Virus record (IMG/VR): IMGVR_UViG_3300012925_000005
Span: 1-41,096 of that record
From: a virus
Direction: 5' to 3' (one strand)
DNA: 41,096 bases
This document shows positions 13,907-28,332 of the stretch, piece after piece (positions within the stretch are counted from its first letter, which is position 1; each line of letters starts with the position of its first letter). The position numbers and the translations under genes were made by a program. The notes below the pieces were generated by a model, which did not search any database, was not told the DNA's origin, and saw only the letters and a list, made by a program, of their open reading frames with translations.

Positions 13907-14381
<475 letters not shown>

Positions 14382-14507: not shown

Positions 14508-14798
14508 TTACTTTTCAACCACCGCCAGGATATCATCCTGAGACACAATCTTATATTCTTCCTTATCAAGCTCAACTTTATCACCACCCCAGCTCTTGAG
14601 AATCACGTGGTCCCCTACTTTTACATACATAGGAGCAAGCTTACCGTCTTCCATAAGTTTACCGGGACCAACCGCAATAATTTCACCTTCCGATTTTTCT
14701 TTTTTATCTCCTGAAAGAATGAGGCCGAAGGAGGTTACCTCATCTTCTTTTTTTTGTTTAACCAAGACATTATCTCCAAGTGGTTTGATAGTTGGCAT
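14508..14798 (-). CDS. groES: Co-chaperonin GroES
   Basis: A 96-residue protein of normal GroES length. It has IKPLGDNVLVKQ at the start, a mobile-loop region (EVTSFGLILSGD), GEIIAVGPGKLMEDGK, VKVGDHVILKSWGG, and the closing EYKIVSQDDILAVVE. It would cap a host GroEL ring during folding of phage proteins such as capsid. The style is close to that of Parcubacteria-type GroES. No complete groEL partner is present, so it must work with the host chaperonin. Confidence 0.92.
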   Translation of the reverse strand: MPTIKPLGDNVLVKQKKEDEVTSFGLILSGDKKEKSEGEIIAVGPGKLMEDGKLAPMYVKVGDHVILKSWGGDKVELDKEEYKIVSQDDILAVVEK

Positions 14799-15298: not shown

Positions 15299-15550
15299 TT
15301 ACTCAACGATTTCCCAGTCTTCAGAAAGTAAACATGTTTGAGAAGCAACCCAGGGAATCAAATACCCTTCTGCTGTACTCATATATAGGTACGGTCTACC
15401 CATCTTTGAATTTTCGTCAGGAATCTGTAGCGCAATCCACATTCCTTTGCCATTCCATCCTGTACGAGCGACCTTTTTACCATTACGAAGTGCCGCTAAC
15501 GCACCTCCAAAATCGTTACTAAACTGCTGTCCTGTTTCTTGGTTTTCCAT
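15299..15550 (-). CDS. tad2: Tad2-like anti-Thoeris protein (DUF2829)
   Basis: An 83-residue protein with the full DUF2829 pattern: FGGALAALRNGKKVARTGWN (residues 14-33), KGMWIALQ, PYLYMSTAEG, and LIPWVASQTCLLSEDWEIVE at the end. Known family members (Tad2) bind and sequester the cyclic ADP-ribose signal of Thoeris, blocking abortive defence. The core, including GWNGKGMW and the SQTD/C..EDW end, is intact and the length is normal. Assignment is by motif recognition; activity is inferred. Confidence 0.85.
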   Translation of the reverse strand: MENQETGQQFSNDFGGALAALRNGKKVARTGWNGKGMWIALQIPDENSKMGRPYLYMSTAEGYLIPWVASQTCLLSEDWEIVE

Positions 15551-15620
15551 ATATTATATGATTAAGAATAAAACACATTAATGAATTAGTGGCGGTTTTT
15601 TTTCAGTCCGCCAACTGGAC
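15551..15620. other. Hairpin-containing gap
   Basis: Between the Tad2-like gene and the small SD-led frames, the sequence GGCGG..CCGCC brackets an A8 run on the minus strand (T8 on plus). It lacks the trailing T-tract of a terminator. Function unclear. Confidence 0.25.
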
Positions 15621-15622
15621 TC

Positions 15623-15706
15623 CTACGCTGTCGCAGTTGCCGCCTCACCACATCCGGTCAGGATTGAAACCAAGTTTCTCCACCATCGTTTTACTCGAGC
15701 GGTCAT
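15623..15706 (-). CDS. Possible lipoprotein-like micropeptide
   Basis: A 27-residue frame MTARVKRWWRNLVSILTGCG.., with a basic start, a short hydrophobic run and Cys in a lipobox-like LTGC. It begins 14 bp after the stop of the upstream 50-residue frame and has AAAGGA placed correctly before the ATG. The hydrophobic stretch is short for a signal peptide, so this is tentative. Confidence 0.3.
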   Translation of the reverse strand: MTARVKRWWRNLVSILTGCGEAATATA

Positions 15707-15720
15707 GATTGGTTCCTTTG

Positions 15721-15873
15721 TTAAGACGTTCCGTCAGGGCTGAGAGTCCGCCGACCGTCTCTTTCCATAAGCTCACTCGGAGTGATCTGCTCCTTGGCAG
15801 GCGGAAGGTACGTTGGATTCGTTGTCGGGGCATGGGTTAGATCTCCTTCGTGGTGGGGGTTGACAGTGAGCAT
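15721..15873 (-). CDS. Small protein with strong ribosome-binding site
   Basis: A 50-residue frame, MLTVNPHHEGDLTHAPTTNP to RTLSPDGTS, rich in Pro and Thr. GAGGAGT lies 5 bp before the ATG, a genuine Shine-Dalgarno, unlike most genes here. A 62-residue frame in another phase (15645-15833) overlaps it. I prefer this one because it is tandem with the SD-led frame at 15706. Function unknown. Confidence 0.42.
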   Translation of the reverse strand: MLTVNPHHEGDLTHAPTTNPTYLPPAKEQITPSELMERDGRRTLSPDGTS

Positions 15874-15887
15874 GATTACTCCTCTAT

Positions 15888-15916
15888 TTGATTTTACAAT
15901 TTAAAAATGGTAGTAT
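15888..15916 (+). promoter_or_regulatory. Plus-strand promoter of the 15.9-kb RNA
   Basis: TTGATT (15888-15893), a 17-base spacer, and TAGTAT (15911-15916) with a TGG extended -10. Expected start near 15923. It points away from the minus-strand SD-led frames into the structured RNA. Confidence 0.6.
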
Positions 15917-15921
15917 TGTTC

Positions 15922-16025
15922 TGCTCATTATGAGCCAGAATGCAGTAAAGTACTTAGAACACTTACAAAGTGCTGCCTCACCAGTAGTAATACTGGCTGA
16001 GGCTGCATTCTGCAAGTGTTTTTTT
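15922..16025 (+). ncRNA. Interlocked-helix small RNA with terminator
   Basis: About 100 nt. A 5' CTCAT/ATGAG hairpin comes first. A (15936-15945) pairs perfectly with A' (16003-16012, 10 bp). B (15958-15964) pairs with B' (16014-16020, 7 bp) and is followed by T7, giving a terminator. Between B and A' is a hairpin of GCCTC..CCAGTA with TACTGG..GAGGC. The order A-B-A'-B' makes the helices either a pseudoknot or alternatives. A 35-codon frame from 15930 (MSQNAVKYLEHLQ..) spans it and might be a leader peptide. Confidence 0.62.
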
Positions 16026-16027
16026 AC

Positions 16028-16348
16028 AACAAGCTAACGGGGTAAGGAGGGATTTGAATAATATTTTCCTACTTTATAAGCCTCCGTGAGAATCTACATA
16101 CTGGATTCTTTCGGGAGGCTAGCATAAAGGTCGGGTCTCTATTGTTCACGTTAACTTCGTAACATATGCTTAAACCTATTAAGCGTTATGTTCCAGCTAT
16201 AAATCCTTTGGCCAAGACTATATACGTAAGACCCACAGTCACACGTACTGGCATTGTGCGCAAAGCTTCTATTCGCCGACCGAAATTCCGTCATGGAATA
16301 ACGATGGGCTATAGAATGATGTAGTTTGGTAAACCCCGTTAGCTTGTT
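16028..16348. other. 321-bp element closed by 16-bp inverted repeats
   Basis: AACAAGCTAACGGGGT (16028-16043) recurs inverted and exact at 16333-16348. Inside, AGCCTCC/GGAGGCT with an inner AGAATC/GATTCT (about 16079-16120), GGTCGG/CCGACC, GGGTCT/AGACCC, and a hairpin over an ATG at 16166 add more pairing. It could be a large folded RNA or a MITE-like insertion. No target-site duplication is visible just outside the repeats. Confidence 0.55.
16166..16324 (+). CDS. Possible basic protein inside the inverted-repeat element
   Basis: A 52-residue plus-strand frame, MLKPIKRYVPAINPLAKTIY to HGITMGYRMM, strongly basic with plausible composition. Its ATG lies in the stem of a 12-bp hairpin (16161-16193) with no Shine-Dalgarno, so translation would be restrained. 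It may instead be chance within a structured RNA. Confidence 0.35.
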   Translation: MLKPIKRYVPAINPLAKTIYVRPTVTRTGIVRKASIRRPKFRHGITMGYRMM

Positions 16349-16364
16349 ATAAATAATTCTTCAA

Positions 16365-16727
16365 CTAAATCTCTCTAGAATTAATCTCATCAATCTTCTT
16401 TTGACATTCTTGACGAGTTTGAAAAACATTATTACACTTAAGACGAAATTCAAAGAATTCTTTTCCGTGAAAACTATTTTCTTCAGCAATTCCTAATGAA
16501 TTTATAAAAAAATAATTCTCATTTTCTTCATCGGGTACCCAACGAGGAGATGATACTAATTTATAACCTAAATCATCTAATTCTTCTTGAGTGAAACATG
16601 TTATAGTTCTTCCGTTATATTCCTGTTTAGTTAAAGCTAAATATTCATTTTTTGAAACATCAATAATTATTATTGTCCAACTACTATTTCCAATTTTACT
16701 CCCCACTGGATATTTTATTTTTTGCAT
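16365..16727 (-). CDS. Hypothetical protein with C-terminal helix
   Basis: A 120-residue protein starting MQKIKYPVGSKIGNSSWTII, with an Ile-rich beta N-terminus and RTITCFTQEELDDLGYK in the middle. An in-frame ATG at 16736 would add three residues. It overlaps the preceding gene's stop. No family recognised. Confidence 0.55.
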   Translation of the reverse strand: MQKIKYPVGSKIGNSSWTIIIIDVSKNEYLALTKQEYNGRTITCFTQEELDDLGYKLVSSPRWVPDEENENYFFINSLGIAEENSFHGKEFFEFRLKCNNVFQTRQECQKKIDEINSREI

Positions 16728-16900
16728 ACTGTACAAATATTAGTTTTTAAAAACTCATTATTCTTTATCTTAGCTATCAAATCAAAAATACTTTCTACCG
16801 CTCGATTCAACTTCTCTTCATTAGGATTAACATCACCCAAAGCATACCAAAGTCGTGTACTAATCTCTATCCGTAATTTTTCTTTTTGTTTTTCAGTCAT
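16715..16900 (-). CDS. Hypothetical helical protein with terminal CxxC
   Basis: A 61-residue protein, MTEKQKEKLRIEISTRLWYA.., ending ICTVCKK. The body is helical. It is coupled by overlap to the gene at 16727. Similar small phage proteins with YALGDVNPNEEKL-like centres are of unknown function. Confidence 0.55.
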   Translation of the reverse strand: MTEKQKEKLRIEISTRLWYALGDVNPNEEKLNRAVESIFDLIAKIKNNEFLKTNICTVCKK

Positions 16901-20163: not shown

Positions 20164-20236
20164 TGGGATAGAAGAGAGTCGAACTCTTGCTGAGACCTCC
20201 ACAAAGTCTCGTGCTGACCCTTACACTACTATCCCC
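20164..20236 (-). tRNA. tRNA-His (GTG)
   Basis: On the minus strand the acceptor GGGATAG pairs with CTATCCC, with an extra G at -1 (20236) as in tRNA-His. The D arm is GTGT..GCAC, the anticodon stem AGACT/GGTCT with loop TTGTGGA (anticodon GTG), and the T arm AAGAG-TTCGACT-CTCTT. The discriminator is A and no CCA is encoded. All arms close correctly. It could supply histidine codon reading late in infection or act as an integration or recombination landmark. Confidence 0.92.
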
Positions 20237-21150: not shown

Positions 21151-21170
21151 GAGTGAAGGAGGGGGCACTC
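21151..21170. ncRNA. Hairpin displaying AAGGAGGGGG loop, copy 2
   Basis: GAGTG (21151-21155) and CACTC (21166-21170) pair around the same AAGGAGGGGG loop as copy 1. The closing pair is G-C here and C-G there, a compensatory change. A larger GCCACG/CGTGGC stem (21128-21192) encloses it. Confidence 0.5.
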
Positions 21171-21222
21171 TCACCTGAAGGGCATGCGTGGCTGGTCGTA
21201 CAGCTCGCGACTGCACCACCAG

Positions 21223-21531
21223 TTATGAAATTACGCGATTATTCCTGCTCCAGCTCCTGCTCCAGCTCCAGCTCCTGTTCCCGCTCCCGCTCCTGTTCCC
21301 GCTCCCGCTCCTGTTCCCGCTCCCGCTCCTGTTCCCGCTCCCGCTCCAGCTCCTGTTCCCGCTCCCGCTCCTGTTCCCGCTCCCGCTCCAGCTCCTGCTC
21401 CCGCTCCCGCTCCCGCTCCTGCTCCTGTTCCCGCTCCCGCTCCCGCTCCCGCTCCTGCTCCAGCTCCAGCTCCAGCTCCTGCTCCAGCTATTTTCGTAAC
21501 CAACTCTTAAAAATGTTTGGTTAACTAACAT
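21223..21531 (-). CDS. Serine-dipeptide repeat protein
   Basis: A 102-residue protein. MLVNQTFLRVGYENSW leads into about 80 residues of Ser or Asn alternating with Trp, Arg or Gly (SRSGSGSGNRSRSGSG style), then RNNRVIS. The ATG at 21531 lies one base from the stop of the upstream gene and has the local A/T-rich leader, so this phase is the likely real one. Encoded by hexanucleotide repeats; all other phases are also open. Confidence 0.5.
   Translation of the reverse strand: MLVNQTFLRVGYENSWSRSWSWSWSRSGSGSGSGNRSRSGSGSGSRSWSGSGNRSGSGNRSWSGSGNRSGSGNRSGSGNRSGSGNRSWSWSRSWSRNNRVIS
21236..21490. repeat. Hexanucleotide tandem repeat tract
   Basis: About 250 bp of degenerate 6-base units (GGAGCN or GGAACA on the minus strand, the inverse on plus). 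It creates long open frames in several phases and encodes the Ser-rich repeats. Length changes by slipped replication are expected. Confidence 0.85.
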
Positions 21532-21532
21532 A

Positions 21533-21859
21533 TTATTTTTGTTTATCAAATAAAGGATGACTCCAATCAAATATATCAACAATACTTCCGACAGCTACAC
21601 GATACAAGCCTTTCACGGGTTCAATTTCATTGGCCTCACCAGTCTTAAGGAAATCGGAGAAACGTCCTGTATCTGGAATCCATGAAGCATTTGAAAAAAC
21701 TAAGAAGTTTCCTTTAATGTCATCCAATTTTCCAACAACATAATGAGTTACGGTACGAATAAAATATTTTTCTCCGATTTGAACAGGTAATTCTTGTTCG
21801 GATGAATTTTCTTTCTTCATCAACAAAGTGATAAGTTCTAAAAGCGTGTCTTTTTGCAT
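21533..21859 (-). CDS. Conserved phage protein of unknown function
   Basis: A 108-residue protein. KYFIRTVTHYVVGKLDDIKG, FLVFSNASWIPDTGRFSDFL and GSIVDIFDWSHPLFDKQK follow a pattern I recognise from many phage hypotheticals, a small beta domain with a conserved ASW..DTGRFSD core. Function has not been established. It is located in the recombination gene cluster. Confidence 0.65.
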   Translation of the reverse strand: MQKDTLLELITLLMKKENSSEQELPVQIGEKYFIRTVTHYVVGKLDDIKGNFLVFSNASWIPDTGRFSDFLKTGEANEIEPVKGLYRVAVGSIVDIFDWSHPLFDKQK

Positions 21860-25311: not shown

Positions 25312-26031
25312 TTAGATATCAGTCATAGCAATGAGCAAACCGCTCGTTTTTTTGTTACCGTCTATAGTTATTCCCGACGGTATGGCTGAGATATCTGTTG
25401 ACTTAGTGGCAGCAGTACCTTTTCTGGGTACATTGTTGACGTAACCTCCAAAGATTATCCCGTTCCCGTTAGAACCACATCCTTCAAAAAAGATGTGGGT
25501 TACAGAAACGGGATCAAAGTCTCTGACAATACTCATTTGGAGTACTATAGCAGGAACAATTGACGAGTAGTTGTTTGATCCCGCGGGAGCGTTTTCTTTG
25601 AGCAGGTAAGCCGTACAGGTGTTCAGTAAGGTGCTGTAAAATTGCAGGCTGTAGGGGTTACGGGATTTGAAGACCAAACCTTTGTAATTTCCCTGATTTT
25701 TGAAACCATCGGGAAAACCGCACCATGAACCATAGGGCGGATTGGCGGGATTGTCAGGGTCATCCGGATATTGGGAACACGGATCGCCCAGCTTGGTTGG
25801 CACGGTTATTCCTCCGTCAGTTTTTTGTCCTCCTCCATCTAAGTTCAAACACACCTGAGCGGGCATCTCTCGGTTATAACAGAGGGACAAAGCGACGTCA
25901 CACTGATAACCGCACTGGCTGTCGTCAGTGCAGGATTCGCACAGACGATATTCCCGGGTAGAAGGGTAAGAGTCGAAACAGCCGTTAAGCATTACAACTT
26001 CTAAAAGAAAATAAAACAGTCTGGTATTCAT
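25312..26031 (-). CDS. Cys-rich secreted lipoprotein with strong ribosome-binding site
   Basis: A 239-residue protein. A short hydrophobic start (LFYFLLEVVMLNGCF) with a lipobox-like LNGC at residues 15-18 is followed by a disulfide-rich N-terminal domain (LCESCTDDSQCGYQCDVALS, then YNREMPAQVCLN) and a beta C-terminal domain (THIFFEGCGSNGNGIIFGGY). AAAGGAGG lies 6 bp before the ATG, unlike nearly every other gene here, suggesting recent transfer from an SD-using bacterium. It may alter the host surface (superinfection exclusion); that is a guess. Confidence 0.7.
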   Translation of the reverse strand: MNTRLFYFLLEVVMLNGCFDSYPSTREYRLCESCTDDSQCGYQCDVALSLCYNREMPAQVCLNLDGGGQKTDGGITVPTKLGDPCSQYPDDPDNPANPPYGSWCGFPDGFKNQGNYKGLVFKSRNPYSLQFYSTLLNTCTAYLLKENAPAGSNNYSSIVPAIVLQMSIVRDFDPVSVTHIFFEGCGSNGNGIIFGGYVNNVPRKGTAATKSTDISAIPSGITIDGNKKTSGLLIAMTDI

Positions 26032-27925: not shown

Positions 27926-28049
27926 TATCTTCTATATTGAAGATCACTTAACGGAATTTAACAAAATCTGCCATTGGAATCCCTTCACAATGCGGGTTTT
28001 GAATACTGAACACGTTTCAGTCAAAATCCGTTAAGTGAAGGGATTTTTT
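27926..28049 (+). ncRNA. Interlocked-helix small RNA with long stems and terminator
   Basis: About 124 nt. 5' ATCTTC/GAAGAT hairpin. A (27944-27955) pairs perfectly with A' (28027-28038), 12 bp. B (27978-27988, AATCCCTTCAC) pairs with B' (28035-28045), 11 bp, followed by T6. The pairs overlap in GTGA, so they compete. Between them TTTTGA/TCAAAA and CTGAA/TTCAG (27997-28026) form an inner hairpin. It converges on the minus-strand gene at 28048, with no gene immediately downstream, so a free small RNA is favoured. Confidence 0.68.
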
Positions 28050-28332
28050 ATATATTATTCCAGGGAACGGTGGCAGGAATCGGATGAACGGTGAGAGCGC
28101 CTTTGATGTCGATGGCCTGAATATTAACATGAACCATCGGAGTTTCAACGAAAATTTTCGATCCGGGTTCTGTTTCATCATATTCAACTCGTTTGACTTG
28201 ATACGTCCATATATTTGGCGCCGGATCATACGAAGCCGAAACTATAATTCCTTGAAATATAGAAAAATCATCCGGATCAACGAACCAGACGAATGTTCCG
28301 ATAATGTAATCGGGGGCGGAGATAGCGGGCAT
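28048..28332 (-). CDS. Hypothetical protein, beta-rich
   Basis: A 94-residue beta protein (YIIGTFVWFVDPDDFSIFQG, YQVKRVEYDETEP..). Its end abuts the terminator of the opposing small RNA. Unrecognised. Confidence 0.55.
   Translation of the reverse strand: MPAISAPDYIIGTFVWFVDPDDFSIFQGIIVSASYDPAPNIWTYQVKRVEYDETEPGSKIFVETPMVHVNIQAIDIKGALTVHPIPATVPWNNI

Follow-up and report, generated by a model that had tools for sequence, protein, structure and literature searches.

The segment at positions 16028-16348 of the window, the window being the whole stretch of viral DNA analyzed (41,096 bases), is tentatively read here as a structured RNA domain in which a long stem, with 16 perfect bp and up to 21 bp when extended, clamps the two ends together, and is grouped by architecture, not by sequence, with intergenic end-clamped units of ~118 to 404 nt in this group of phages; we give this reading a probability of about 0.45. 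Computation supports the fold and its clamp, the excess of clamps among related phages, and the combination of promoter, clamp, and open reading frame (ORF) in two of the related sequences, designated L043 and L016. The layout in the window is best read as a mini-mRNA of the L043 and L016 kind if its 52-codon ORF is real, and otherwise as a clamped noncoding RNA of the sort present in three further relatives, L029, L019, and L004.

The closing stem and the fold it encloses

The virus contig encodes terminase, RecT, RusA, a DnaD-like helicase loader, and tail genes. The genes around the element are all on the minus strand, and the element is intergenic between them, directly after a run of seven T's on the plus strand. 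The features of the locus are the following.

15645-15873, minus strand: small ORFs to the left of the element
15927-16025, plus strand: adjacent hairpin together with its upstream segment, CAGAATGCAG, which is complementary to the hairpin's 3' arm
15951-16025, plus strand: the long hairpin proper, ending in seven T's (T-tract at 16019-16025) and terminator-like on this strand
16028-16043, plus strand: 5' arm of the closing stem P1, AACAAGCTAACGGGGT, extendable to 16020
16055-16148, plus strand: Arm I, a long hairpin with an AGCCTCC/GGAGGCT helix (-35.5 kcal/mol, z -6.2)
16161-16192, plus strand: Arm II, a short hairpin in which the 52-codon frame has its ATG (z -4.5)
16193-16329, either strand: Arm III, weaker, with two branches (z -2.5 on both strands)
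16333-16348, plus strand: 3' arm of P1, ACCCCGTTAGCTTGTT, extendable to 16356
16365-16736, minus strand: gene to the right, its end 17 nt from the element

The perfect 16-bp inverted ends described in an earlier note on this DNA are present, the two arms of P1 being exact reverse complements, and they form the window's longest perfect inverted repeat at spacings of 60 to 700 nt. The repeat extends to 16020-16356 (24 positions at 92%), which gives a P1 of 21 bp with one G.U pair on the minus strand and one C.A mismatch on the plus strand. The dense internal pairing that the same note reported is far above chance, with a minimum free energy (MFE) of -116.3 kcal/mol and a z score of -8.2 on the plus strand, and of -107.2 kcal/mol and -6.6 on the minus strand. 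On the plus strand the model is a three-arm junction closed by P1, and the fold is unchanged when the element is placed in a 474-nt context. The internal helices proposed earlier fared unequally: AGCCTCC/GGAGGCT is predicted with a mean probability of 0.86, and GGTCGG/CCGACC and GGGTCT/AGACCC are unsupported, being absent from the MFE structure and costing ~12 and ~18 kcal/mol, respectively, when forced.

Taken alone, the 16-bp repeat is only moderately rare: when the window was shuffled 400 times with its composition preserved, an inverted repeat of at least 16 bp appeared in 10 cases (2.5%). This frequency, and the fact that the boundaries were picked by a reader after looking, would suit an inverted repeat that arose by chance next to ordinary hairpins, the segment as a whole being without function. 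We consider that account improbable, since by folding the element comes first, with a wide margin, among 171 sliding windows of 321 nt; its interior without the closing stem (z -4.6) and Arm I are each significant in the absence of P1; and clamps are enriched in relatives, as described below.

The perfect ends, together with a size within the expected range and a unique place in the accessory region, not syntenic with relatives, could also mark a DNA-level inverted-repeat element, either a MITE-like non-autonomous transposable element, as the earlier note had suggested, or an inverton flipped by a recombinase. The element is, however, present in a single copy in the genome, and the covariance model detected none in 50 related records; its left flank (TTTTTTTAC) and right flank (ATAAATAAT) share no direct repeat that could be a target-site duplication; and Pfam matches among 35 window proteins include neither a transposase nor a recombinase. 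These negative results weigh against a transposable or an invertible segment, and an interior z score of -4.6 is unexpected for a simple segment flanked by inverted repeats; we regard this origin as quite improbable. Inverted repeats of nearly equal span in two related sequences, L016 (6318-6638, 321 nt) and L017 (7825-8147, 323 nt), were considered and rejected because they lie inside coding sequence.

No homologue of the element, which the earlier note had proposed to seek in related phages and hosts, was found by blastn, tblastn, exact-pattern searches, Rfam, or a covariance model. In particular, blastn against phages and plasmids gave none, a single-sequence covariance model had no match in the related loci or in 50 whole related phage records, and exact searches of IMG/VR with the P1 16-mer and two 15-mers matched only at chance level, in different contexts that were mostly coding. 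The closest phages have only 60% of the terminase protein in common, and their accessory region is non-syntenic. At the gathering score, the sole Rfam match in the window is a tRNA-His (20164-20235), and a permissive Rfam search of 15600-16400 gave only chance-level miRNA and CRISPR matches. A tmRNA was rejected, since ARAGORN reports the tRNA-His only, and so was a retron noncoding RNA, since the Pfam matches of the 35 window proteins include no reverse transcriptase.

The earlier suggestion of a large ornate RNA is thus retained in part: folding statistics, intergenic position, and the recurrence of the architecture in relatives favor a structured RNA, but not one of the known large kinds. 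GOLLD and ROOL are large phage-carried RNAs that form conserved Rfam families and often occur near tRNA islands (PMC12286853). The element resembles them in being phage encoded and strongly structured, but both are much larger than its 321 nt, and it has no Rfam match, no relatives that we could find, and no tRNA island beside it.

Strand, promoter, and the 52-codon frame

The 52-codon frame noted earlier does exist (16166-16324, plus strand), with its ATG inside the Arm II hairpin, and it is basic as described, with 14 Lys or Arg and zero acidic residues. Its stop is followed, after 8 nt, by the 3' arm of P1. The ATG is preceded by T, as are about 44 of the 50 listed starts of this phage, whose genes mostly lack Shine-Dalgarno sites. 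By codon usage, 15% of noncoding open frames reach its score, and just 2.5% of coding segments fall to that level. The frame has no match to a protein family, and no relative of the predicted 52-residue product was found by tblastn against phages and plasmids or in scans of IMG/VR and genomes. Nor does the product look like a hydrophobic small toxin, being basic with a longest charge-free run of ~9 to 10 residues.

The signs of strand conflict, and the transcribed strand predicted for the unit is ambiguous. Arm I folds better on the plus strand by 9.6 kcal/mol (-25.9 kcal/mol and z -3.9 on the minus strand), whereas the P1 extension, with its G.U pair in place of a mismatch, and the adjacent hairpin both pair better on the minus strand; folding of the whole locus is equal on the two strands (-175.0 and -175.3 kcal/mol). 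We infer that the window copy is transcribed, as we do its strand and all of the functional steps proposed below, and the likely strand is plus, to judge from Arm I and the ORF, though the P1 extension favors minus.

A noncoding structured RNA read from either strand, acting in trans or binding a protein or host factor, with the 52-codon frame accidental, is a possible alternative that we hold somewhat doubtful. One form of it would be an intercistronic RNA in a minus-strand operon, between the gene at 16365-16736 and the ORFs at 15645-15873. The strong folding on both strands, the better minus-strand pairing of the P1 extension and adjacent hairpin, and the minus-strand orientation of all neighboring genes agree with it, as do the clamped units of L029, L019, and L004, which are gene-free. 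The far better pairing of Arm I on the plus strand, and a start context and stop position that suit a minigene layout, speak against it.

No good promoter adjoins P1 on either strand, the best scores, 5 and 6, being ordinary for random positions. Because no promoter stands right beside the unit, the window copy would be made by read-through of a longer transcript. Inspection of the sequence shows TTGATT-17-TAGTAT upstream of the adjacent hairpin on the plus strand, weakly resembling a promoter (8 of 12 matches); it falls below the threshold of the promoter scan and is absent from its listing.

Stem-clamped units in related phages and end-paired mRNAs

Stems closing 90 to 520 nt were sought with a G.U-tolerant scan (score of at least 44, counted per strand) and compared with shuffles; this comparison is the decisive test of enrichment. 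The 79 terminase- or capsid-related sequences (982 kb, window included) yielded 21 strand-hits, and their shuffled counterparts 1.83. A control of 39 unrelated IMG/VR contigs (351 kb), a small set differing in composition from the related one, gave 1 against 3.5 in shuffles. Spans of 500 to 2,000 nt showed no excess (7 against 7.25). Raw counts of inverted repeats of at least 16 bp, 6 in 940 kb of related sequence against 0 in 350 kb of control, are non-significant alone.

The strong units are those of L007 (333 nt), L029 (147 nt), L016 (372 nt), L052 (118 nt), L043 (404 nt), L004 (122 nt), and the window (337 nt), and that of L019 (253 nt) is slightly weaker. In all of these the arms lie outside long ORFs, whereas control or chance-like stems fall within coding sequence. 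The units share no sequence, and the architecture by which they are classed together was defined after the data had been seen. The L007 unit stands in a region (1353-2003) where its 39-nt closing stem is built of GCCACACA repeats and further clamped repeats lie alongside. Two units have the organization of a mini-mRNA.

L043, 3470-3950, plus strand: sigma70-type promoter TTGACA-17-TATACT, 27-bp clamp, 106-residue ORF, and intrinsic terminator
L016, 2785-3187, minus strand: promoter TTGACT-16-TATACT, 29-bp clamp (8+8+13), and 63-residue ORF inside

In L043 the ORF stops ~13 nt before the 3' arm, the unit has a z score of -6.2, and the inverted repeat in the DNA takes in the -10 region (GCTATACTGTT / AACAGTATAGC). 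In L016 the promoter lies 3 nt before the clamp and the unit has a z score of -5.2. An extended -10 promoter lies 8 nt ahead of the stem of the L029 unit, which like those of L019 and L004 encloses no gene. The promoter score of L043 was reached by none of ~3,200 random positions, and that of L016 and L029 by 1.25%. In L043, L016, and L029, the strand that carries the promoter is the one on which the stem forms more pairing when G.U is allowed, as expected if RNA, not DNA, is selected.

These observations suggest a shared way of making closed, stable RNAs across the phage group. The likeliest mechanism for the window unit is that its transcript would fold co-transcriptionally into Arms I to III, after which P1 would pair both ends to give a closed, nuclease-resistant RNA. 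Should the 52-codon frame be translated, the clamp and the hairpin over the ATG would keep the mRNA in a state of low translation, which would last until the ends had been processed, either trimmed back or cleaved, perhaps by an RNase III-type enzyme.

End-to-end pairing is, to our knowledge, known in few bacterial mRNAs only, and the element may, by analogy, be a mini-mRNA kept shut in the manner of hok, AapA, or icaR; membership in the hok/AapA or icaR families is not claimed. In such end-paired mRNAs the pairing either prevents translation or provides a substrate for RNase III. The type I toxin mRNAs of hok/Sok and AapA/IsoA have a 5'-3' long-distance interaction (PMC6733600). The element would resemble them in being a small-ORF mRNA, short and structured, with predicted long-range pairing of its ends and a start region in a hairpin, and the need for end processing before translation, as is thought for those mRNAs, is proposed here as well. 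It differs in that its peptide is basic and has no membrane-spanning stretch, in having no adjacent promoter, and in showing no sequence relation, and an antisense RNA antitoxin is a feature of that kind. In the icaR mRNA of Staphylococcus aureus, the 5'-UTR and 3'-UTR pair to form a double-stranded RNA able to control translation and cleavage by RNase III (PMC3868564). The predicted likeness is that a single mRNA has its two ends paired, but in icaR this is a short interaction between the Shine-Dalgarno sequence and UCCCCUG across a long mRNA, whereas the phage units have a stem of 16 to 29 bp over 320 to 400 nt, and most phage genes lack a Shine-Dalgarno site.

A wider proposal, which we consider unlikely as it stands, is that this uncultured phage group carries many sequence-unrelated intergenic RNA units with end clamps of 16 to 39 bp, some of them complete mini-mRNAs. 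If true, there would be a convergent or fast-evolving route to closed, stable, or switchable phage transcripts, and the clamped units would offer many natural test cases. If a phage lineage reuses the clamp while the sequence changes, end closure would be a general strategy for the control or protection of phage genes.

Neighboring features of the window

As the earlier note had it, the element adjoins an interlocked RNA, since it abuts a pseudoknot-capable hairpin that ends in the T-tract at 16019-16025. The 10- to 12-bp attenuator-like pairing there was considered as a possible regulator of the element. Attenuator-like hairpins occur at five places in the window, each with a T-tract at its end and an upstream segment of 10 to 13 nt complementary to part of the hairpin, and several stand just 5' of an ORF; these are possible antiterminator/terminator switches or pseudoknots.

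15927-16025, plus strand: attenuator-like hairpin beside the element
27944-28058, plus strand: attenuator-like hairpin
13140-13050, minus strand: attenuator-like hairpin
23704-23581, minus strand: attenuator-like hairpin
24400-24215, minus strand: attenuator-like hairpin

Left of this locus, a patch of 52% GC on the minus strand (15580-15880) holds tiny overlapping ORFs (50 and 62 residues) with strong Shine-Dalgarno sites, in contrast to the rest of the phage; a Microviridae-like insert was considered and rejected, as searches gave no relatives. The minus-strand gene at 15299-15550 encodes a Tad2-like protein of a Thoeris anti-defense family (PF11195, E = 7.6e-24). Farther left on the same strand, what we take, by inspection, to be two GroEL fragments (13907-14369) lie next to an intact gene for GroES (14508-14798), seemingly the remains of a degraded groEL carried by the phage. 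The minus-strand gene at 25312-26031 encodes a cysteine-rich protein and looks acquired; it has a strong Shine-Dalgarno site, contrary to the usual start context of the phage. At 21153-21582 there is a low-complexity Ser/Arg repeat region with open frames on both strands.
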